Of a DNA stretch of 25,627 nt, positions 6,018 to 25,254 are shown one piece after another. The translations under genes and the position numbers were made by a program. This stretch comes from a virus: positions 1 to 25,627 of the IMG/VR virus record IMGVR_UViG_3300034023_000083. One strand, written 5' to 3'. How positions within the stretch are numbered: position 1 is the first letter of the stretch; every line of letters starts with the position of its first letter. Under the pieces are notes generated by a model. It was not told the DNA's origin. It did not search any database and was given only the letters and a program-made list of their open reading frames with translations.

Positions 6018-7290
6018 ACCCTATCAAGAGCAGGCCGCTGACTTCTTGTACGAGCGTGATCGTGCGATGGTGCTTGCGCCCGTAGGTGCGGGCAAGACTG
6101 CGATTACGCTTACGGCCATGAGCGATATGGTGCGTGATGGGCTAGCCGCGCGTTGGCTAGTCGTAGCCCCTAAGCGCGTGTGCACTGACGTGTGGCCCAT
6201 CGAGGCACCTAAGTGGGCGCCCGAGCTAGATGTGCAGGTTGCGGTCGGAACGCCAAAGCAACGCACCGCCGCCTTGACCGCGCAGGTTGTTGTGATCAAC
6301 TACGACAACTTGCAGTGGCTGGCCGAGCAGTCGATGGACTTCGATGGCGTTGTGTTTGATGAGCTGACACGCCTCAAGAACCCATCAGGTGCCAGATTTA
6401 AAGCGCTTGCCAAAGTGCTTGACTGTCCGATCCGTTGGGGTCTGACCGGATCGTTTACGAGCAACGGTCTTGAGGATGTCTTCGGTCAGTGCAAGATCAT
6501 CGATCAAAAGTTGCTCGGGCGCTCGAAGGGCGCGTTCATGCAGCAATACTTTAGTCTTAATACTTACGCTGGGTTCGACGATTGGACGCCGCTTCCCGGC
6601 GCGCTAGAGCGCGTCATGCAGCGCATCAAACCTGCTACTTTCGTATTAGAGCCAGGCGAGTACAAGGACAAGTTGCCGCTTTGCCATGTGGTGCAAATAG
6701 ACGTTCAATTAAACGACCGTGAGCCGTACGAGGCGATGAAGCGTGACTTTGTGGTGCAGTTCCCCGATGCTCAGGCTATCGCTCAGAACGCTGCGGTTGT
6801 CACGCAGAAGTTACAGCAGATGTCTTCGGGGTTTGTTTACTCACCTGAGCCTGTCTGGTTTAGCCCGCATAAGTTTGATGCGTTGGATGATCTGCTGTCT
6901 GAGAACCAACGCGCTAACACGATCCTTGTTTACCAATACAAAGAGGAACTTGATGAACTCAAACGACGATACCGAAATCTTACCGTTTTGGACGACCCTG
7001 ACGCCATTAGACGATGGAACGCTGGCAACGTACCGCTTTTGGCGGTGCACCCAAAATCAGCCGGTCACGGCCTTAACTTGCAGTTCGGCGGCTGCCACAT
7101 GGTGTTTCTGTCCCTGCCATGGTCACTTGAGCTTTTCGAGCAAACTGTCGGACGTTTGCACCGCTCCGGCCAGCAGCGCGACGTGTGGGTCTACGCCCTG
7201 ATGACTAAAGATACCGTCGATGAGCGCATATGGACCGCGCTGCACGACAAACGCAAACTAAGCGATATTGCAATGGAGGCATTGAAATGA
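5998..7290 (+). CDS. SNF2-type superfamily 2 helicase/ATPase
   Basis: This 430-aa protein has two RecA-like lobes. Visible motifs are Q-motif-like KLRPYQEQA (6-14), Walker A APVGAGKT (27-34), motif II DELT (121-124, in place of the usual DEAH), motif III LTGS (149-152), and motif VI QTVGRLHRSGQ (382-392) with its arginine finger. This set is typical of small phage SNF2 proteins that translocate on DNA. I chose the ATG at 5998 over that at 5992 because AAGGA at 5985-5989 is 8 bases from the former and only 2 from the latter. It is translationally coupled to the VRR-NUC gene upstream and overlaps the next gene as ATGA. No extra DNA-binding domain is seen. Confidence 0.93.
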   Translation: MRGQKLRPYQEQAADFLYERDRAMVLAPVGAGKTAITLTAMSDMVRDGLAARWLVVAPKRVCTDVWPIEAPKWAPELDVQVAVGTPKQRTAALTAQVVVINYDNLQWLAEQSMDFDGVVFDELTRLKNPSGARFKALAKVLDCPIRWGLTGSFTSNGLEDVFGQCKIIDQKLLGRSKGAFMQQYFSLNTYAGFDDWTPLPGALERVMQRIKPATFVLEPGEYKDKLPLCHVVQIDVQLNDREPYEAMKRDFVVQFPDAQAIAQNAAVVTQKLQQMSSGFVYSPEPVWFSPHKFDALDDLLSENQRANTILVYQYKEELDELKRRYRNLTVLDDPDAIRRWNAGNVPLLAVHPKSAGHGLNLQFGGCHMVFLSLPWSLELFEQTVGRLHRSGQQRDVWVYALMTKDTVDERIWTALHDKRKLSDIAMEALK

Positions 7291-17377: not shown

Positions 17378-19870
17378 TTAAAGTGCGGCAATGATAAAGG
17401 CTAACAACTCGCTGTATCGCACACCTAAACGCGTTTGTGAAGAGCCGTCTGAAGTAGTCCATGTATCACTGCAAAACAAACCGTATTTTGACGCATCTAA
17501 GCCTTCTGCGGCAAATGCTTCTTGAACTTCTTGCGCGATAACACCAAAATGAATCCGCGCCTCATCACCTTTGGCCTCAACAGCGTCGTTCCATTTAAAC
17601 GCCCGTATGAGTTTTTTGACTCGTTGAGCCGTGCGCTGCTCGGCGTCTGACAAATCTCTGATCTGTTGCTTTTGATTTGCGTCTGACGTATTGATCGTAC
17701 CTGTGGTTGCGTAGACTACGGTGTATCTAAACGACGCAGTACCTAGCGCGCGGACGTTGTCTGTAGTGGGGCGCCAAGTGCCGCTGTCACCCGCAAAAAT
17801 AACAGTGCCTGGGTAAGACCCATACGCAAGCAATACACCACTAGGCCCACCTACAATGCCGTAAGTAGTATCGTCATAAAAATAACCGTTAGCGGTTTTG
17901 TAGGTGGCGCCCACAAACGCGTTACTAGTGCTTGAAAACGTCTTAACACCTGAGATGGTTTGAGTGCCGGTTGTTGTGACAATACCAGCGCCGGTAAGTG
18001 ATGTCGCGCCTGTTCCACCGTTAGCTACAGCAAGCGTACCTCCAAGCGTCAACGTTCCCGATGTAGTGATCGGACCGCCGGTAAGCGTTAACCCCGTAGT
18101 ACCACCACTACCGCTGACGCTAGTTACCGTACCGCTGCCGCCCGTTGCAGAGATGGTTATGCCGCCCGAACTGTTGCTAATCGATATGTTTGTGCCTGCG
18201 GTTAGGTTGGCAACGCTGTAGCCTGAACCGTTACCTATAAGTAACTGACCGTTAGACGGCGTGGATGTAACGCCCGTACCGCCGTAGCCGATACCAATAG
18301 TTGACCCGTTCCACGTACCTGCGGCGACGACACCTGACAAGTCAAGGTTTTGTGAGTAAACGGTTGTCCAACGTTGGCTTAAGGTGCCGCTGCTGTAAGA
18401 CGCTGTGGTAGATGGGCGAAAGGACGTGGCGTCGCCTACGTAGCGGCTTGTGCCTGGGTACGTACTACCGCTAGCCAACACAACACCATTGACGCCACCA
18501 ATAACTGCATACGCCCCACTCTCACCAAAGTAAGCGTTTGTTGTTGCGTAAGTTGTACCTGCGTAGGTGCTAGAGTAGCTAGTGAAGTTCTTTTGACCGC
18601 TAATAACTTGGCTGTCGGTTAACGTAACAATACCCGCGCCTGTAAGCGACGACGACCCCGTACCACCATTAGCGACGTTTAACGTACCCCCAAGCGTAAT
18701 CGTGCCAGACGACGTAATAGGACCGCCAGACGTCGTTAATCCTGTCGTACCGCCTGAAACATCAACTGAACTTACGCCCGTGGACCCCGACGCGCTTATC
18801 GTGATTGATCCTGCGCCGTTTGATATAGAGATGTTAGAGCCAGCAGTCAATGTGGCTAACGAATAGCCAGAACCGTTGCCAATCAACAGTTGACCATTAG
18901 ACGGCGTTGATGTGACGCCTGTGCCACCATAGCCAACTGTTATGGTTGAACCATTCCATGTGCCTGCGGCAACAACACCTGATAAGTCAAGGTTTTGCGA
19001 GTAAACCGTCGTCCAACGCTGTGTCAGCGTACCCGAACTGTAAGAGGCTGTTGTTGAAGGTCTAAACGACGTAGCGTCGCCTACATATCGGCTTGTGCCA
19101 GGATAAGTAGCACCGCTGGCTAGTACGACACCATTAGCGCCGCCTACAACGGCATAAGCGCTGTTTTCACCAAAGTAAGCGTTAGAACCTGTGCCGCCGT
19201 CTGACGTGGCATAGGTGGTACCAAGAAACGTGTTGGTGTAGCTAGTAAAGTTTTTTTGACCGCTGATGGTCTGCGTGCCGGTCTTAGTTACGATACCCGC
19301 GCCGTCTAGCGTCGTTGAACCCGTACCGCCGTTAGCTACAGCAAGCGTACCCGACATCGTGATGGTGCCGGAAGACGTGATAGGCCCACCTGTAAACGTC
19401 ATGCCTGTCGTGCCACCAGACACATCAACGCTAGTTACAGTGCCGCTAGACGTTGGTCCTGGTGGGATAATCGGCGGCGATAAATTAGCGTAGCTATCGA
19501 TGAAAATTTGCATAGCCGCAGGCAGCAGCGCTTGGCTATCGTCGGCAGACGGCACAACAAAAGGCGGCGAAACTGCTTGGCTATCATCAAACGATTGTTG
19601 AGCAAACGGTGGCAGCAGCGCTTGATTGTCTGCCACTGACATAGGTGTGACGGCAGGCGGCGCTAGATCAGTAGCGCTACCCGCTACTAATATGTTGATG
19701 TTCTGCGCGGGCGGTCCAACTTGAAGATCGTCAAGACTTGTCTGGTTGTTGCCCTGCCCCACCAACGTAAACAGATTTAAAAAGAACCGATACCATTCGC
19801 GCGAAATGAGTCCCGTCTTCTCATCGATGATACTGACGCGGGGTGCGGGTATGTTAGTGATGTTAAGCAT
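17378..19870 (-). CDS. Repeat-rich tail fibre with C-terminal S74 chaperone
   Basis: This 830-aa fibre begins with IPAPRVSIIDEKTGLISREW (residues 7-26), the kind of N-terminus that docks fibres to podovirus tails. Residues 66-136 hold four loose copies of a 'D-[ND]-[SY]-[QA]-A ... PP' motif (DNQALLPP, DDSQAVSPP, DDSQALLP, DSYANLSPP). Three large repeats follow at 143-362, 364-579 and 580-725, full of VANGGTG and GGPITSSGT turns. The end (727-830) is an intramolecular chaperone of the S74 family: NTSD with S729 and K734, then HFGVIAQEVQEAF at 774-786. S74 domains assemble trimers and then cleave themselves at the Ser. No ribosome site is evident; the start overlaps the gp10-like gene by 8 bases. 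Confidence 0.9.
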   Translation of the reverse strand: MLNITNIPAPRVSIIDEKTGLISREWYRFFLNLFTLVGQGNNQTSLDDLQVGPPAQNINILVAGSATDLAPPAVTPMSVADNQALLPPFAQQSFDDSQAVSPPFVVPSADDSQALLPAAMQIFIDSYANLSPPIIPPGPTSSGTVTSVDVSGGTTGMTFTGGPITSSGTITMSGTLAVANGGTGSTTLDGAGIVTKTGTQTISGQKNFTSYTNTFLGTTYATSDGGTGSNAYFGENSAYAVVGGANGVVLASGATYPGTSRYVGDATSFRPSTTASYSSGTLTQRWTTVYSQNLDLSGVVAAGTWNGSTITVGYGGTGVTSTPSNGQLLIGNGSGYSLATLTAGSNISISNGAGSITISASGSTGVSSVDVSGGTTGLTTSGGPITSSGTITLGGTLNVANGGTGSSSLTGAGIVTLTDSQVISGQKNFTSYSSTYAGTTYATTNAYFGESGAYAVIGGVNGVVLASGSTYPGTSRYVGDATSFRPSTTASYSSGTLSQRWTTVYSQNLDLSGVVAAGTWNGSTIGIGYGGTGVTSTPSNGQLLIGNGSGYSVANLTAGTNISISNSSGGITISATGGSGTVTSVSGSGGTTGLTLTGGPITTSGTLTLGGTLAVANGGTGATSLTGAGIVTTTGTQTISGVKTFSSTSNAFVGATYKTANGYFYDDTTYGIVGGPSGVLLAYGSYPGTVIFAGDSGTWRPTTDNVRALGTASFRYTVVYATTGTINTSDANQKQQIRDLSDAEQRTAQRVKKLIRAFKWNDAVEAKGDEARIHFGVIAQEVQEAFAAEGLDASKYGLFCSDTWTTSDGSSQTRLGVRYSELLAFIIAAL
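17696..19444. repeat. Three-copy internal repeat of the tail fibre gene
   Basis: Copy 1 (about 19444-18782) and copy 2 (18781-18134) encode about 220 and 216 residues that are nearly alike for long stretches (both hold GTSRYVGDATSFRPSTTASY and RWTTVYSQNLDLSGVVAAG). Copy 3 (18133-17696) keeps only the first part and is more diverged. Copy 1 has about five extra residues (SDGGTGSN for TN). The DNA differs at many third codon positions, so the duplication is not recent. Confidence 0.85.
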
Positions 19871-21404
19871 TGGTCGGCGTTATGAGGAGTTCCGCGCCCA
19901 TAATCGCTGTTTTTACAGGATCGGTCATTGATAATTCATAGACCCTATCGCGCAACTTCATGGTCATCCCTAGACGCCTAAACCAAACGCGGTGGCCGTA
20001 CTCACCAATCTTTCCAACCGAGGATGTACGGTAGTTAGACCATGTGTGACCGCCATCATCAGACCAACGTAGCATGACCTCAGGGTCAGCGCCCTGCGTG
20101 CCTGGAAGCTGTTGCTCCTCAATGAAGTAGTCACCTGTTTCTGTCACTAGATAGTTGCCGCCTGTTTCAGTAATAAAATAGACGTTTTCGGTGCGTGGAT
20201 AGCCGTTTAAACCAACGCCAGACTCAATGTCGATCTGCATCGAATACTGCGCGGTACGTTTGAGATTGTTTTGGCCGGTCGGCAGCGCCCGCCACGAGCG
20301 CAGCCACTTTTGTATCTGACCGTTGTCAGCGTAGGTGTCAAGGTCAAACGCGTAAATATTGCCGTTTTGATAGTCGCCCACAATAATTTTATTGTTGAAC
20401 GCCATCTGGCAATTGCTGCGGTGCCGCGTAAACGATCCGTTATTCCACCCAGCGCGCTCATGCCATGCGCCTGTCGCAACGTCATAGACCCAAGTTGTAT
20501 TGGCGCTGGGGAAGATAAGCACGTAAAAGCTGTGGCCGTCTTGCTGGTAGGTGTAAGCAAGCGCGTCAGTAAGATTGCCGTACTGTTGAATTTGCCACTC
20601 AACCGCGTGGGTACTGATGCGTTGGCCGGTGTAACCGTTAGCGCGGTAGACAATACCTTGGCCTCTGGCGTCAGCGCCCAACCAAAACAGACCGTTATCC
20701 ATCTTAGCGATGGTGTACGCTGATATACAGCCAATCTCATTAAACGCGCCTTGGATGCGCTGTAACGGGAAATCAGGCGTACCAGCGTCGTACCAAACTT
20801 CAACGGTACTTGTGCCGTACACCCAAACTTCACGATGATCAACAATAAGACCCACCACACCGTCGGGTGATCCTTCAGCGCTTGCAAAGTCAAGCGGATC
20901 AATAGACGTACCATCAAGCAGTTGCGTAACCCAAATACGTTGGCTGTTAGGCTCATTAAAAACAAAGTAGCCGTCGATATAGCCAACCGTTACCGCACCA
21001 GGAAAATCAGGGTCTATGATCTGACCAAATTCGCCGGTGTCAATGTTGTAGATGTAGCTAGGACCGTTGCAGGCAATGAATAACTGTATGCCGTTGTCAG
21101 CCATGCTGACAGGGCCAGTGCCAGGAATAGAGCCGATAAGCGTAGCGGCGTAGCTGGTGTTGATTCGGTACAGTTCGTTACCGGATACAACAAACGCGGT
21201 ACTGTTATCAGACGAAAAAGTCCATAACCCTCTAACAGGACCGCTGCCGATCGTAGCAAGGTTTAGTAGACCAGGGCAGCGCTGAAGAAACGCAGGTTCT
21301 TTGCCGCCTTCCGGCACTACCTCTGGAAATAAATTGACCATCCTCGCATCGGCTGCGTTGACGGAACGGGCAACGTAAGTCGAGCCAAGGATCGGCGTTT
21401 TCAT
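19863..21404 (-). CDS. P22 gp10-like tail accessory factor (packaged-DNA stabilisation)
   Basis: This 513-aa protein begins MKTPILGSTYVARSVNAADA, then RMVNLFPEVVPEGGKEPAFL and CPGLL. This is the hallmark N-terminus of P22 gp10-type head-to-tail proteins. The body is a string of beta blades (LYRINTS, YIYNIDTGEFGQI, WVYDVATGAWHERAGW, YAFDLDTYADNG) consistent with a beta-propeller. It forms part of the short tail hub that the fibres attach to. Near residues 410-425 there is a tight double motif, ITETGGNYLVTETGDYFIEE. The start overlaps the gp4-like stop (TAATG). Confidence 0.92.
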   Translation of the reverse strand: MKTPILGSTYVARSVNAADARMVNLFPEVVPEGGKEPAFLQRCPGLLNLATIGSGPVRGLWTFSSDNSTAFVVSGNELYRINTSYAATLIGSIPGTGPVSMADNGIQLFIACNGPSYIYNIDTGEFGQIIDPDFPGAVTVGYIDGYFVFNEPNSQRIWVTQLLDGTSIDPLDFASAEGSPDGVVGLIVDHREVWVYGTSTVEVWYDAGTPDFPLQRIQGAFNEIGCISAYTIAKMDNGLFWLGADARGQGIVYRANGYTGQRISTHAVEWQIQQYGNLTDALAYTYQQDGHSFYVLIFPSANTTWVYDVATGAWHERAGWNNGSFTRHRSNCQMAFNNKIIVGDYQNGNIYAFDLDTYADNGQIQKWLRSWRALPTGQNNLKRTAQYSMQIDIESGVGLNGYPRTENVYFITETGGNYLVTETGDYFIEEQQLPGTQGADPEVMLRWSDDGGHTWSNYRTSSVGKIGEYGHRVWFRRLGMTMKLRDRVYELSMTDPVKTAIMGAELLITPTNA

Positions 21405-22114
21405 TAGAAGTTATTGGCGTAGATGTTGTACCGTTGACGCGTCGCAACAATCGGATAAGGTATCGCCATAAGATCGCCAGGAAAGTTAACGCGTTTGATG
21501 TTGCGCTTACTTGACATGGCAATACGCTGTACCTGCGGCGAAGGTTCTACACCAAACTCAGGCGCTAACTCGCACGCTAGGTTGTAGCGAAACGCGCGTA
21601 AATAGCCTGGTGGAAAGTACATGTCTGTAGCGACGCTTGACACTTCATTGAGCGTTTCTACCGAAATGATGTGCCACTCTAAGGCTTTAATAGGCACAGG
21701 ATAAATGGTCATCTCAATATCAGGAAAGGTATTGTTGACCCATAAAACCTGCGGATAGGTGGACGTAACCGTTTTGAACGCGATGCCGTCGTACTGCTGC
21801 TGATTGATAAGTTTGACGCCAAACGACAACCCTGATGAAGGGTCTTTAAAGTAAGTTGCGTCGTCAACTTCGATAGGACGATTGCCAACAAAATCACCAG
21901 TAGGCCCAAGCGTGCGGGACATGGTGTAAGCAGGCCATGTAAACACCTGATCTTGCGTGCTGAACACCGACAGGCGCTCGGTATCCCATGACTGAATCAT
22001 TTGATTCATCGCCATGATGGAATCTTGCATCACAGCAACCGAAGGCTGTTCACCTTCGGCCAACACGCCAAGAAGTCTAAGCGACCCTTCAATCAATTCA
22101 GCGGCAGTTGTCAT
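21404..22114 (-). CDS. P22 gp4-like tail accessory factor / head completion protein
   Basis: The 236-aa sequence opens with TAAELIEGSLRLLGVLAEGE, then LNQM-type helix MAMNQMIQSWDTERLSVF, and ends with a helix block FPPGYLRAFRYNLACELAPE and MSSKRNIKRVN. This is the arrangement of P22 gp4-type adaptors that sit below the portal. The middle beta part (60-150) is longer than in P22 gp4. Its position right before the gp10-like gene supports this. P22 gp4 also has a cell-wall hydrolase activity; I see no motif that would confirm it here. The start overlaps the previous stop as ATGA. Confidence 0.85.
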   Translation of the reverse strand: MTTAAELIEGSLRLLGVLAEGEQPSVAVMQDSIMAMNQMIQSWDTERLSVFSTQDQVFTWPAYTMSRTLGPTGDFVGNRPIEVDDATYFKDPSSGLSFGVKLINQQQYDGIAFKTVTSTYPQVLWVNNTFPDIEMTIYPVPIKALEWHIISVETLNEVSSVATDMYFPPGYLRAFRYNLACELAPEFGVEPSPQVQRIAMSSKRNIKRVNFPGDLMAIPYPIVATRQRYNIYANNF

Positions 22115-22299
22115 GACTCAATCTCCTGAGGTCTGCGACTGCGACGACGTGGTTGAAGTTCGTTAACAGTCTCATGCTCATCCGTTACGGCATTAGGATC
22201 ATACGCTTCCCAGCCATTTTGTCTGTCATGTTCAGCTTCCATGTCAGATATAGCAACTTTAGCACCATGCGTAGGGTGGCGAAGATAGATGACGGCCAT
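22111..22299 (-). CDS. Conserved small phage protein, 62 aa
   Basis: The product starts MAVIYLRHPTHGAKVAISDM and continues EAEHDRQNGWEAYDP, with an Arg-rich end (RRRSRRPQE). Similar short proteins sit between coat and tail-adaptor genes in many podoviruses; their role is not known. No ribosome site precedes the ATG; it is only 10 bases downstream of a GC hairpin (22310-22326) in an A/T-rich stretch, which may leave the start open. Its stop overlaps the gp4-like start. Confidence 0.7.
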   Translation of the reverse strand: MAVIYLRHPTHGAKVAISDMEAEHDRQNGWEAYDPNAVTDEHETVNELQPRRRSRRPQEIES

Positions 22300-22309
22300 A
22301 ATTTTAAAT

Positions 22310-22326
22310 GGGGGTAGTTAGCCCCC
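22310..22326 (-). terminator. GC hairpin after the second decoration-type gene
   Basis: On the minus strand GGGGG (22326-22322) and CCCCC (22314-22310) pair around a 7-base loop, followed by ATTTAAAATT. It lies between the 136-aa gene and the 62-aa gene. With no clean T-run it is a weak terminator or an mRNA-stabilising hairpin. Confidence 0.5.
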
Positions 22327-22332
22327 GCGCCT

Positions 22333-22743
22333 TTACACGCAATGAATTACAGCAAAATTAATAACAACTGCTTCAGACAGCGAGCCGCCTGAGATGTTAC
22401 GCACGGTAATTGACGCAGAACCTGCGCTTATACCGGAAACCCAGCAGTTATACGCGCCAGCCGTAGCACCACCGCTTACGTTCAGAATCAAGATGTCGTT
22501 AGTAGAAATAAGCGAGTTGTTTAACGTAAAAGTTACGTTGGTTACGCTCGCCAAAGCTGCGTTATTCATCGTGATCTGACCGGCGGCTTTGTTAAGCGTT
22601 ACAGCGGTCGATTTGCTAGTAGCCTGAGTTACCGTACCTTGAGCGTTTGCTGTGTAACCAAACTGTTCATCAGACAATATGTACTGCGCGCCGATGATGT
22701 CTTGGTCAGTGAAAGCAACGCCGATTGGCTTAGTGTTTGACAT
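22333..22743 (-). CDS. Candidate head decoration protein, 136 aa
   Basis: The N-terminal 30 residues (GVAFTDQDIIGAQYILSDEQFGYT in outline) are followed by a beta-sandwich-like block: GTVTQATSKSTAVTLNKAAG, then ITMNNAALASVTNVTFTLNN and RNISGGSLSEAVVINFAVI. This domain is found in many phage virion proteins with Thr/Val-rich strands. Its place two genes after coat suggests it sits on the capsid. AAAGGA lies 7 bases before the ATG. A fibre-type role cannot be excluded. Confidence 0.8.
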   Translation of the reverse strand: MSNTKPIGVAFTDQDIIGAQYILSDEQFGYTANAQGTVTQATSKSTAVTLNKAAGQITMNNAALASVTNVTFTLNNSLISTNDILILNVSGGATAGAYNCWVSGISAGSASITVRNISGGSLSEAVVINFAVIHCV

Positions 22744-22756
22744 AGCTAATCCTTTT

Positions 22757-22780
22757 AAAAATAGGGGGCGAACCCCCTAT
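22757..22780 (-). terminator. UUCG hairpin terminator between the two decoration-type genes
   Basis: On the minus strand ATAGGGGG (22780-22773) and CCCCCTAT (22768-22761) form a perfect 8-bp stem with a TTCG loop, followed by TTTT (22760-22757). It has all features of a rho-independent terminator, although the run of T is short. It lies directly ahead of the ribosome site of the next gene. Confidence 0.75.
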
Positions 22781-22783
22781 CGA

Positions 22784-23179
22784 TTACGCAATCCGATAAG
22801 CCGTCCAAGTGCCGTCGCCGGTCTTGCGAGCCAGCCATTGCGACGATGTACCTGCCGATACCGCAGCCGTGCCAACAAGCGTCCAACCCGTGCCTGCCGT
22901 TACGGTCACCGCATCTGTACTGTCGATGTTAACCACCGCAAACGTAAACGCTGCATTGATCTTAGCTGCGGAAGAAACTTCAGCCTCAAGCAACGCAACC
23001 GTAGGCAGCGTCATTGCGCCAGCGGTGCCGTCAAACGTAAACAGACCGTTTGCTAGTTGAGCCGCTGTGATTGTAGCTGCGCCAGTAAGCGCGGTAGGAG
23101 CACCTTGAACAAACAACAAAGCCTCGCCGGTATTACCGTCGTTGTACTGATAGCCACCAGCACCGTTAGGAATTGCCAT
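22784..23179 (-). CDS. Candidate head decoration protein, 131 aa
   Basis: The product begins MAIPNGAGGYQYNDGNTGEA, then TALTGAATITAAQLANGLFTF and AMTLPTVALLEAEVSS, and ends with GTSSQWLARKTGDGTWTAYR. This beta-rich plan is seen in small proteins directly after the coat gene in phages and is likely a capsid decoration or head-fibre subunit. The ATG at 23177-23179 was chosen since AAAGGA lies just upstream; a start at 23194 would include that site in the coding sequence. Hairpins flank the gene on both sides. Confidence 0.8.
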   Translation of the reverse strand: MAIPNGAGGYQYNDGNTGEALLFVQGAPTALTGAATITAAQLANGLFTFDGTAGAMTLPTVALLEAEVSSAAKINAAFTFAVVNIDSTDAVTVTAGTGWTLVGTAAVSAGTSSQWLARKTGDGTWTAYRIA

Positions 23180-23192
23180 GATAAATCCTTTC

Positions 23193-23226
23193 AAAAAATA
23201 ATTCGGTAAGGGGGCCGAAGCCCCCT
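23193..23226 (-). terminator. UUCG hairpin after the coat protein gene
   Basis: On the minus strand AGGGGGC (23226-23220) and GCCCCCT (23215-23209) form a 7-bp stem closed by an extra-stable TTCG loop. Six T (23198-23193) follow, but only after a 10-base gap. It may end part of the coat transcripts or protect the 3' end of a processed coat mRNA. Confidence 0.6.
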
Positions 23227-23233
23227 AGATTAA

Positions 23234-24442
23234 TTAACCCCAGAGACGAACAGCCATTTGCGGACGAATCACGCTGTAGCCGTACAGCACGTCAATACGG
23301 CAGGGCATACGGTCGTTGTTGATGTCGTATTGACGAACAATACGCATCGAAATACCGTTATGAACCTGACGCGATGCCATGTCAACGCCTTGCGGCATCA
23401 TCAGATCGGCAGTGGCGAAAGTGATAGCGTCTTTGTGGTAGACGAGGTTTTGTGGGTACTGGCTAGATGCTGCACCAACAAAAGTCACGGCCTTGCTGGT
23501 AGCAGGAAGGCTAGCAACGGTAGCTAAGGCGTTACCCGAAGAATAGATCGGAGCGACAGTGATGTTACCTGCGCCAGAGCCATTCAGCGTGACGTCAACG
23601 GTTGCAACGAACTGGAACAGCGAACCAGTGGACTCACGGGTCTGTGGGTTAACTGCATAGCAATCAGCCACGGTAAACACGTCGCCAGCTTTAACGGTTG
23701 CGCTAGCACCTGCGCCAGTGATGGCGATAGTCGTTGCACCTTCGCTTGTTACAGCAGCAGACGTTGTACCGCCGGTAGCCGTACGCGAGCCGGTCGTGAA
23801 CTGCTTGATCGACTGAGACATGTTGATCTCATCAAACCCAAGCACACCCATACCCATCATGCCGTTCTTGAACTGACGGCTGATCGTGTCGGTGGGGTTG
23901 AAAAGACCTTTCATGCCTTCAACCAAACCAGCGTTAGCGGCTGGGTTGACCGTGGCGTAACGGGGCGACATAACCGCAGCGTTCTCGTTAAGTTTCTGCT
24001 GTGCTTGCAACAGAACCAACGATGTAGCGGGCGTCGTTCCAGGCGTACCAACTGTGTTACCGATGTACTGGTAGGAGTTAGCAACGTCAGCGTCGATGCT
24101 AGCAGCAAGCTGGCTAATACGAGGCTTAAGCACACGCTCTGCGAAGTCGTCCAACTGCAAGGTCAATTCAGCAGATGTGAAGTTAACACCAATGTGCTTT
24201 TGCGTAGCAACAGTCAACGTGGTGTACTGCTCGTTATCGCTTTGGACTTGCAGTGCAGCACCGTCAGTGACAAGCGCACGGTCCGGGAGGCGAATACGGA
24301 GGGTCGAACCAATCTTAGCGCCTTCAACGGCAAAGCTGTCGTCGTACTGGCGGTTTACGTTGCGGGTTAAGACAAGATTATTCTCAAGGATTTCAAGCGC
24401 CTTGCGAGTAATCATGTCGATGGTAAGTAGGCTATTTGCCAT
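23234..24442 (-). CDS. Major coat protein, P22 gp5-like
   Basis: The 402-aa sequence starts MANSLLTIDMITRKALEILE, then GAKIGSTLRIRLPDRALVTD and VNFTSAELTLQLDDFAERVL. These match the N-arm, E-loop and spine of P22-type HK97-fold coats. Residues about 215-320 (AGDVFTVADCYAVNPQTRES and following beta strands) correspond to the insertion (I-) domain. The C-terminal part holds YHKDAITFATADLMMPQGV and ends in RLWG. It would assemble with the scaffold encoded next to it. AAAGGA is 7 bases upstream of the ATG. It is among the longest and most clearly conserved genes of the late block. Confidence 0.95.
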   Translation of the reverse strand: MANSLLTIDMITRKALEILENNLVLTRNVNRQYDDSFAVEGAKIGSTLRIRLPDRALVTDGAALQVQSDNEQYTTLTVATQKHIGVNFTSAELTLQLDDFAERVLKPRISQLAASIDADVANSYQYIGNTVGTPGTTPATSLVLLQAQQKLNENAAVMSPRYATVNPAANAGLVEGMKGLFNPTDTISRQFKNGMMGMGVLGFDEINMSQSIKQFTTGSRTATGGTTSAAVTSEGATTIAITGAGASATVKAGDVFTVADCYAVNPQTRESTGSLFQFVATVDVTLNGSGAGNITVAPIYSSGNALATVASLPATSKAVTFVGAASSQYPQNLVYHKDAITFATADLMMPQGVDMASRQVHNGISMRIVRQYDINNDRMPCRIDVLYGYSVIRPQMAVRLWG

Positions 24443-24462
24443 GACAATTCCTTTTCAAAAAA

Positions 24463-25254
24463 TTAGCGGACTCGGTTTTGAGATTCCCACTTCTTAATCT
24501 GCCTTTGACGCTCGGCTTCTATCCACTCTGACGTTGACATTTCCTTAATCGAACGCGGGTCAGTTGTGTCTAAAACTCTTGCGTTGCCACCCCTAGGAGT
24601 GACAGGCTGAATCGGCGCTGGGGCACTCGATGATTTCTTAACAGGAGGATTTTCACTTAACCTAGCTTCAATCTTCCCAATCTCTTTTGCCTGCAAAAAA
24701 GGCGACAACTTGGCAATACGATCAGCTTCTTTCGGATTAGAACCAAGGTAATAAGCCACCTCGGGGCCAATGTCAGACGCTTGAATCGTTTCAGCCATCA
24801 CTGTCGTGATTGGAAGTCGGGGGTTGTACGCGACTTGTTCAAAATCTTCGTACTTAGACCGCGCTTCTTCTTCGCGCTCGTGATAGACCTCAAGAACTTC
24901 CGCACGCTGTCTTTCTGCATCCCGACGTGCAAGCAATTCTGCGGCTTTTCTTTCGGCTAACGCTTCCGCGTATTCCTCAGTTGACGCAAAACTATCTTGC
25001 GCGGGTAGATCACCAGACGGCATATCGGGCGTTGACGCCCTCAGCTTTTGTTCTCGTTCCCACTTGCGTTGCTCTCTTGCAAGGCGTTTGCTGATCATCG
25101 CGTCTAGTTCAGCCTGGGTAAAACGCTTTTCCTCAGTCTGATCTGGCGCTTGTTCAGCGACCTCCGGCGCATTTCGTGCATCCTCCGTGGTGGCCGTCAC
25201 CTCGGGTGCTAGCGCGGATTCTACTTCCGCTAAGGTTTGACTTTCGTCGCTCAT
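24463..25254 (-). CDS. Scaffolding protein, P22 gp8-like
   Basis: This 263-aa protein is highly charged. Its acidic N-terminal 45 residues are followed by FTQAELDAMISKRLAREQRK (45-64), a long coiled coil (EEYAEALAERKAAELLARRD and onward to about 135), and a basic C-terminal helix, STSEWIEAERQRQIKKWESQ. The last is the kind of coat-binding helix found at the end of scaffold proteins. It would direct procapsid assembly and leave before or during DNA packaging. Position immediately before coat agrees. The ribosome site is weak (GAG 6 bases before the ATG). A promoter lies directly upstream. Confidence 0.9.
   Translation of the reverse strand: MSDESQTLAEVESALAPEVTATTEDARNAPEVAEQAPDQTEEKRFTQAELDAMISKRLAREQRKWEREQKLRASTPDMPSGDLPAQDSFASTEEYAEALAERKAAELLARRDAERQRAEVLEVYHEREEEARSKYEDFEQVAYNPRLPITTVMAETIQASDIGPEVAYYLGSNPKEADRIAKLSPFLQAKEIGKIEARLSENPPVKKSSSAPAPIQPVTPRGGNARVLDTTDPRSIKEMSTSEWIEAERQRQIKKWESQNRVR

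Follow-up and report, generated by a model that had tools for sequence, protein, structure and literature searches.

Several hundred coat proteins and a few adaptor proteins come from one late phage transcript, a disproportion for which a single terminator behind the capsid gene is commonly held responsible. A study of T7 (PMC5592923) places the sole phage terminator right after gene 10, genes 11 and 12 being expressed by read-through only, and a report on LUZ100 (PMC10134795) describes an apparent strong terminator immediately past the capsid gene. In E. coli, stabilised segments of operons have at their 3' ends hairpins that lack a U-run, and in menBCE consecutive protective hairpins follow menB and menC, the mRNA falling stepwise (PMC5927463). 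In the record of phage P22 a 'putative' stem-loop is annotated immediately past the coat gene (6102-6119) and noted as similar in location to those of HK97 and lambda; the Sf6 record has a post-coat stem-loop, 't coat' (6147-6173), which it labels a likely terminator. In T4, CUUCGG hairpins, with C(UUCG)G loops at gene ends, are scattered between the genes; a literature search for them found no paper. Nor was a paper on serial post-capsid hairpins found in the open literature. Here we describe a phage that has such a device at every gene boundary from coat to gene 4, built with loops that are found again behind capsid genes unrelated to its own.

Three hairpins in the late gene cluster

The stretch of DNA analysed, here called the window, comprises 25,627 bases of an IMG/VR virus record, and its late genes lie on the minus strand. 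Its features, from the scaffold gene downstream, are as follows.

24463-25254, minus strand: scaffold gene of the late cluster
24443..24462, minus strand: coat ribosome site with a T6 run and without hairpin (MFE 0), the internal control
23234..24442, minus strand: coat (major capsid) gene, P22 gp5 family (Pfam PF11651, E 9e-39; phrog_283)
23209..23226, minus strand: hairpin H1, AGGGGGC(UUCG)GCCCCCU, after coat; GC core from 8 nt past the coat stop, without direct U-run
23187..23198, minus strand: gene 2 ribosome site and T6 run, apart from H1; motif as before the coat start
22784..23179, minus strand: gene 2 (P0002, 131 aa), probable capsid spike or decoration protein (AlphaFold model and Foldseek)
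22761..22780, minus strand: hairpin H2, AUAGGGGG(UUCG)CCCCCUAU, after gene 2; GC core from 6 nt past the gene 2 stop
22757..22761, minus strand: U5 run adjoining H2, terminator-like; also the upstream part of the gene 3 ribosome site (22750-22756)
22333..22743, minus strand: gene 3 (P0003, 136 aa), beta-sandwich (phrog_18251; structure model)
22310..22326, minus strand: hairpin H3, GGGGG(CUAACUA)CCCCC, after gene 3; from 6 nt past the gene 3 stop, with a weak U-run
22111..22299, minus strand: gene 4 (P0004, 62 aa), kept in relatives
21404..22114, minus strand: gene 5, head-tail adaptor, P22 gp4-like (phrog_12985, phrog_637 Ad3)
19863-21404, minus strand: head-closure gene of the late cluster

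An earlier note on this DNA had placed GC hairpins after the coat gene and after each of the next two genes, two of them with TTCG loops. All three are present on the minus strand, which is the mRNA strand of the late cluster, at the coat-gene 2 (J1), gene 2-gene 3 (J2) and gene 3-gene 4 (J3) junctions; the UUCG loop is closed by C-G in H1 (the cUUCGg type) and by G-C in H2, and the loop of H3 has 7 nt. Their arms make up 6 of the 11 G5 or C5 runs in the window. When the junctions are mononucleotide-shuffled, a hairpin of five GC pairs arises in fractions of 0.0004 (H1), 0.0002 (H2) and 0.0008 (H3) of 5000 shuffles. With dinucleotide shuffles as the reference, in which G runs stay intact, junction folding gives z scores of -2.18, -2.15 and -0.42, respectively, so that H3 alone would not stand out in the window and is carried by its conservation. 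The scaffold-coat junction has no hairpin. Rfam covariance models gave no match for the hairpins and one chance match elsewhere, under its gathering score.

The coat identity given in the earlier note is backed by the Pfam match. Its two 'decoration' genes fared differently: the AlphaFold model of gene 2 resembles the capsid spike 9ny6_C of Pseudomonas phage Pa223 (Foldseek E 3.8e-5, TM 0.45 by query), which supports the label and makes gene 2 a probable capsid spike or decoration protein, whereas gene 3 offers nothing beyond its beta-sandwich model, for which a Foldseek search of the PDB returned no confident match. We also observe that a T5-T6 run just 5' of an AAAGGA-type Shine-Dalgarno motif is common to the ribosome sites of coat, gene 2 and gene 3 (24443-24462, 23187-23198 and 22750-22761).

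Conservation among relatives

As relatives we took 80 IMG/VR loci, the best by coat protein out of at least 600; one of them, L061, was left out because its coat runs off the contig end, and the window was added, which restored the number to 80. A hairpin was counted as present at -8 kcal/mol or better, and each relative was counted as one, although the relatives are not independent of one another. On this basis a strong hairpin occupies the coat-gene 2 junction in 75 of 80 loci, the gene 2-gene 3 junction in 67 of 69 and, in loci without gene 3, the gene 2-gene 4 junction in 7 of 7. After gene 3 it is found throughout (66/66), whether gene 4 follows (56/56) or gene 5, where no gene 4 was detected (10/10). 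At the gene 4-gene 5 junction none of 62 relatives has a hairpin, and in 26 of these the gap there measures at least 12 nt.

The exceptions are few. One of the two misses at J2 (L049) is due to a gene 3 start placed too early, its hairpin being in fact present, and in the other (L078) none was found. H1 is absent from five relatives (L014, L038, L044, L052 and L073) and thus dispensable; the coat-gene 2 gaps of these loci measure 20-28 nt, against 51-65 nt in most others, a shortening which indicates that H1 can be lost cleanly.

Two relatives, L017 and L019, carry an extra ORF of ~510-576 nt between gene 4 and the adaptor gene, about 1140-1716 nt past the coat stop. It leaves almost no gap to its neighbours and hence has no hairpins, unlike the genes from coat to gene 4.

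Selection at the RNA level

The covariation set consisted of tetraloop hairpins with 7 nt on either side (72 of 75 for H1, 70 of 74 for H2 and 48 of 66 for H3), which reduce to 29, 46 and 23 distinct hairpins. In all three groups of distinct stems pairing is kept at nearly every position despite turnover of the pair types. Changes occur on both arms, including switches of the whole stem between G-first and C-first forms, with pairing retained; when the 3' partners are shuffled between sequences, pairing at H1 positions 1-5 drops from 28-29 to 14-21 of 29. Conservation and covariation together rule out a chance origin, and judged by these alignments the hairpins are under strong selection while their sequence turns over.

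The loops point to the level at which this selection acts. A UNCG loop is found on the mRNA strand in 24 of 29 distinct H1 tetraloop hairpins, 36 of 46 for H2 and 21 of 23 for H3 (81/98 in total), and on the opposite strand in none of the 98. Perfect sense UNCG stems of 6 or more pairs number 91 in 10.2 kb of junctions and 2 in the remaining 660 kb of these loci; of the two, one is a hairpin after gene 2 whose downstream neighbour is unannotated. UUCG stabilises RNA and its TTCG counterpart is not particularly stabilising for DNA (PMC2864571). The strand-specific UNCG, its confinement to junctions and the stability of UUCG in RNA indicate an element that works as RNA in the late mRNA; an element acting at the DNA level is disfavoured, since the UNCG loops appear on the mRNA strand only. 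Taken with conservation and covariation, the sense-strand loops show a selected RNA element at every junction from coat to gene 4 and support a punctuating role of the hairpins in the mRNA.

Exchange of gene 2

Among gene 2 homologs of the relatives, identity falls below 60% in 72 of 132 pairs whose coats are 93% or more identical. Gene 2 has been swapped between phages with 93-98% identical coats; in the 15 pairs listed, identity of the adaptor gene remains at 82-97%. Most hairpins are retained across the swaps. Could the hairpins, then, be module boundaries, short shared sequences that aid exchange of the decoration genes and are kept for recombination and not for expression? The frequency of the swaps would agree with this, as would the comparison of L012 with L013, in which the final 150 nt of coat are 98% identical and the stretch across H1 is 76% identical. 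This drop, however, sets in at about the stop codon, which means that H1 changes along with the cassette, and the stems diverge with pairing kept, which is the reverse of what homology needs; strand-specific UNCG is moreover an RNA feature. On account of the diverging stems and the strand-specific loops, recombination is disfavoured as the main role, and we regard it as very improbable.

U-runs and termination

The tails of the hairpins were scored with the decaying T-weight of Lesnik over 15 nt past the GC core and compared with shuffled tails. H1 tails have a median of 2.30 against 2.44 when shuffled (60 distinct), and in 16 of 60 at least 5 of the first 8 nt are T. The corresponding medians are 3.34 against 2.32 for H2 (62 distinct; 47/62 with 5 or more T) and 3.10 against 2.60 for H3 (46 distinct; 26/46); H2 tails thus clearly exceed their shuffles and H3 tails moderately. 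In the window the first 8 nt contain 2 T after H1, 6 after H2 and 3 after H3, and the post-coat hairpins of P22 and Sf6 have 6 each. A terminator scan of the window listed H2 among 16 terminator-like sites, no excess over a shuffle mean of 15.7; a promoter scan gave 19 promoter-like sites against 11.7 expected (sd 3.4), a modest excess.

These tails bear on the possibility that all three hairpins are leaky intrinsic terminators stepping transcription down, in effect t-coat or T-phi in series. The H2 tails would suit such a role, as would the immediate U-runs of P22 and Sf6, of which the Sf6 one belongs to an annotated likely terminator; exact H3-type hairpins elsewhere also often have U-runs (59/83 and 21/32 distinct flanks for the two loop forms described below, among the matches listed). 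Yet H1 tails are no better than shuffled ones, the H3 tail of the window is weak, and of 38 distinct coat ribosome sites that have a Shine-Dalgarno-like motif and no hairpin, 24 show 5 or more T in the preceding 12 nt. T-runs thus belong in part to the ribosome site, which weakens the H2 T-run as proof of termination: the U-run of H2 is terminator-like, but the T-run may serve translation too. With a direct U-run only at H2, none beyond chance at H1 and U-runs that double as ribosome-site elements, stepwise terminators are only partly supported, and we consider three of them in series rather unlikely. The earlier note had proposed a stepwise drop of transcription or a protection of 3' ends, which might set the order coat > gene 2 > gene 3 > adaptors from one promoter. 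Of this proposal the punctuating role is supported, on the strength of conservation, covariation and UNCG loops, and a series of three terminators, in view of the H1 tails, is not supported as stated.

Spacing and translation

In the relatives the GC core starts mostly 5-10 nt past the stop codon (6-9 nt for H1, 6-8 for H2, 6 or 10 for H3), and the median distance to the next start is 28 nt at J1, 16 at J2 and 10 at J3. That the hairpins lie just before the next ribosome site, as the earlier note had it, is true of H1 and H2 and not of H3, after which no Shine-Dalgarno-like site exists in the window between the hairpin and gene 4 (22300-22332). Within 22 nt of the gene 4 start such a site is likewise absent from 34 of 51 distinct relatives.

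The close spacing to the stop and the missing site after H3 would be expected if the hairpins insulated translation, parting the terminating ribosome from the next start, with H3 at the position of the gene 4 ribosome site and controlling it. The varying distance to the next start speaks against this, and in other phages these same hairpins stand behind capsid genes whose downstream neighbours differ widely, so that we find translational insulation improbable.

A recurrent 17-mer

The H3 17-mer of the window, GGGGGCTAACTACCCCC (CUAACUA loop), occurs exactly in 65 viral contigs, and GGGGGCTAATCACCCCC, with the CUAAUCA loop common at H3 in the relatives, in at least 120. Controls with a changed loop occur in 3 and 13 viral contigs and one with a flipped stem in 5. 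Distinct sites lie 5-9 nt past an ORF stop in 84 of 96 cases for CTAATCA (among the matches listed) and in 23 of 35 for CTAACTA, compared with 0 of 11 loop-changed and 0 of 5 stem-flipped control sites; for the UUCG form GGGGGCTTCGGCCCCC, taken as a comparator, the count is 76 of 128 sites among the matches listed. Near the hairpin, 40 of the 120 CTAATCA contigs listed have no match to coat or genes 2-5, and 5 more match coat only.

The genes upstream were scanned against PHROG with one representative per cluster, covering 10 of 11 CTAATCA clusters, 9 of 11 CTAACTA clusters and 10 of 38 UUCG clusters. CTAATCA follows, among the matches listed, major head proteins of phrog_1328 (16 loci), 283 (5), 4523/371 (3), 617 (1) and 1357 (1), and also a virion structural family (4 loci), a homing endonuclease (3) and two unknown or tail-type families (6 and 3). 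CTAACTA is preceded by a single-strand DNA-binding protein (8 loci), major head (2), gene-2-like (3), tail tube (1) and Hsp20 (1) proteins and unknowns; major head proteins lie upstream of the UUCG form in 4 of the 10 clusters scanned, again among the matches listed. When the phrog_1328 capsid family was fetched by protein and not by hairpin, all 44 distinct sequences (80 loci) had a strong post-capsid hairpin, with loops CTAATCA (10), GAAA (7), TTCG (5) and others, which indicates that the post-capsid hairpin is general and that a few loops are recurrent. Besides CTAATCA and TTCG, the post-capsid loops of this family (L409-L488) include CGTAACAA, TAAC and GAAA.

Genome contigs show another setting of the same letters. 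The 102 matches of GGGGGCTAATCACCCCC in genome_contigs (L215-L316) consist to about 80 of one mobile-element-like end with the same flanks, and an ORF ends within 14 nt upstream in only 10 of the 102, so that a host-borne 17-mer was rejected for the genomes searched. The repeated end, gtgagaggac...tcctactcgat, lies mostly near the ends of Clostridia contigs and is probably a mobile-element terminus.

The distance from stop to stem is 6, 7 or 8 nt in 24, 45 and 34 of 112 cases among the matches listed. An in-frame back-up stop provided by UAA in the H3 loop was rejected, as such spacing does not keep the frame. With a ribosome at the stop codon, the leading edge reaches to about the distance at which the GC core starts, and a stem whose core begins there could stay closed under heavy translation. 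The CTAAYNA loop, 7 nt on a 5-pair stem, may resemble an anticodon arm with a U-turn-like C-U-A-A start.

As far as sequence goes, the exact recurrence of H3-type hairpins 5-9 nt past the stops of unrelated major capsid genes is the new part of these observations. We put forward, tentatively and as a possibility more than an expectation, that tailed phages with unrelated capsids share a few 3'-end hairpins, G5-CUAAYNA-C5 among them, situated 5-9 nt past the stops of their most abundant proteins. The spacing would put the stem at the leading edge of the terminating ribosome, and the loop would be chosen for its fold or its partner; such sequence-defined hairpins would be exchanged or re-evolved across families and are here stacked three deep. 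A narrower proposal would make G5-CUAAYNA-C5 the binding site of a specific factor, a protein or small RNA of phage or host. Its recurrence as an exact 17-mer well above the control counts, behind unrelated genes, is what such a site would produce, but an intrinsically stable fold would explain the recurrence too, and relatives freely use UUCG loops at the same junction, where no single factor is therefore needed. We hold a dedicated factor to be quite improbable.

Discussion

How might a series of hairpins act in the late mRNA? The best-supported account, which we consider somewhat probable, combines serial 3'-end barriers with leaky termination at H2. Where many tailed phages have one hairpin just past the major capsid gene, this phage would have multiplied it to three, and each of the three would form a 3'-end barrier in the mRNA for the gene preceding it. 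The stem would form a few bases past the stop, and a 3'-to-5' exonuclease, after cleavage or termination further on, would be halted there. H1 may be taken for a hairpin of the protective type because it lacks a U-run, like the menBCE class, and H2 resembles a terminator because it has one; H2 with its adjoining U-run could thus also be a leaky intrinsic terminator, a function unlikely for H1 and weak for H3. Barriers in series would make the message most abundant for coat, less so for gene 2 and gene 3 in turn, with the adaptor genes lowest of all. That exonucleases are blocked, that transcription terminates in part and that a graded protein ratio results is what we infer from the arrangement, and the hairpins probably step down the amount of each later protein. 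The system allows a direct test of whether serial hairpins set the ratios of virion proteins by termination or by mRNA decay, and the hairpins offer an easy sequence marker of capsid-gene ends in unknown phage contigs.

The closest described counterparts of H1 are the post-coat hairpins of P22 and Sf6, which share its coat family, place and size, their own GC cores starting 6 nt past the coat stop; the P22 loop, UGCG, is also a UNCG. These phages have one hairpin each, however, and the window phage has three, and their stems are followed by direct U-runs, which H1 lacks. H1 was found in the place of the post-major-capsid stem-loop with 2 T of 8 in its tail, and without a U-run it is filed as a variant at the t coat place and not as a proven t coat terminator. 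More distant phages and complete records with a P22-type coat have a hairpin after coat in 13 of 14 cases, the exception being MW202520, where one follows the next gene instead. In PAE2, FGH, X14, BA3, VvAW1 and 36E38.1 the post-coat hairpin is the only one in the junctions examined; in DSL-LC05, PBR31, MW202483 and P26218 further hairpins follow later genes. DSL-LC05, whose coat is 74.6% identical, has them past both coat and gene 2.

The CUUCGG hairpins of T4 are scattered, whereas in the loci examined hairpins of the window type keep to a single gene cluster. The T-phi terminator of T7 and that of LUZ100 likewise stand right after the capsid gene, but these are phage RNA polymerase systems with a single terminator and another capsid family. 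The malE-malF, puf and menBCE operons share a stable hairpin after the more abundant gene, two in a row in menBCE; they differ in being bacterial operons where the effect was shown by experiment, and H2 here also has a U-run. Of the traits of a protective hairpin (stable, at a gene boundary, without U-run), H1 has all and H2 does not. By its place and sequence, the element is of a known kind, the post-coat stem-loop, multiplied to one per gene and using a restricted set of loops.
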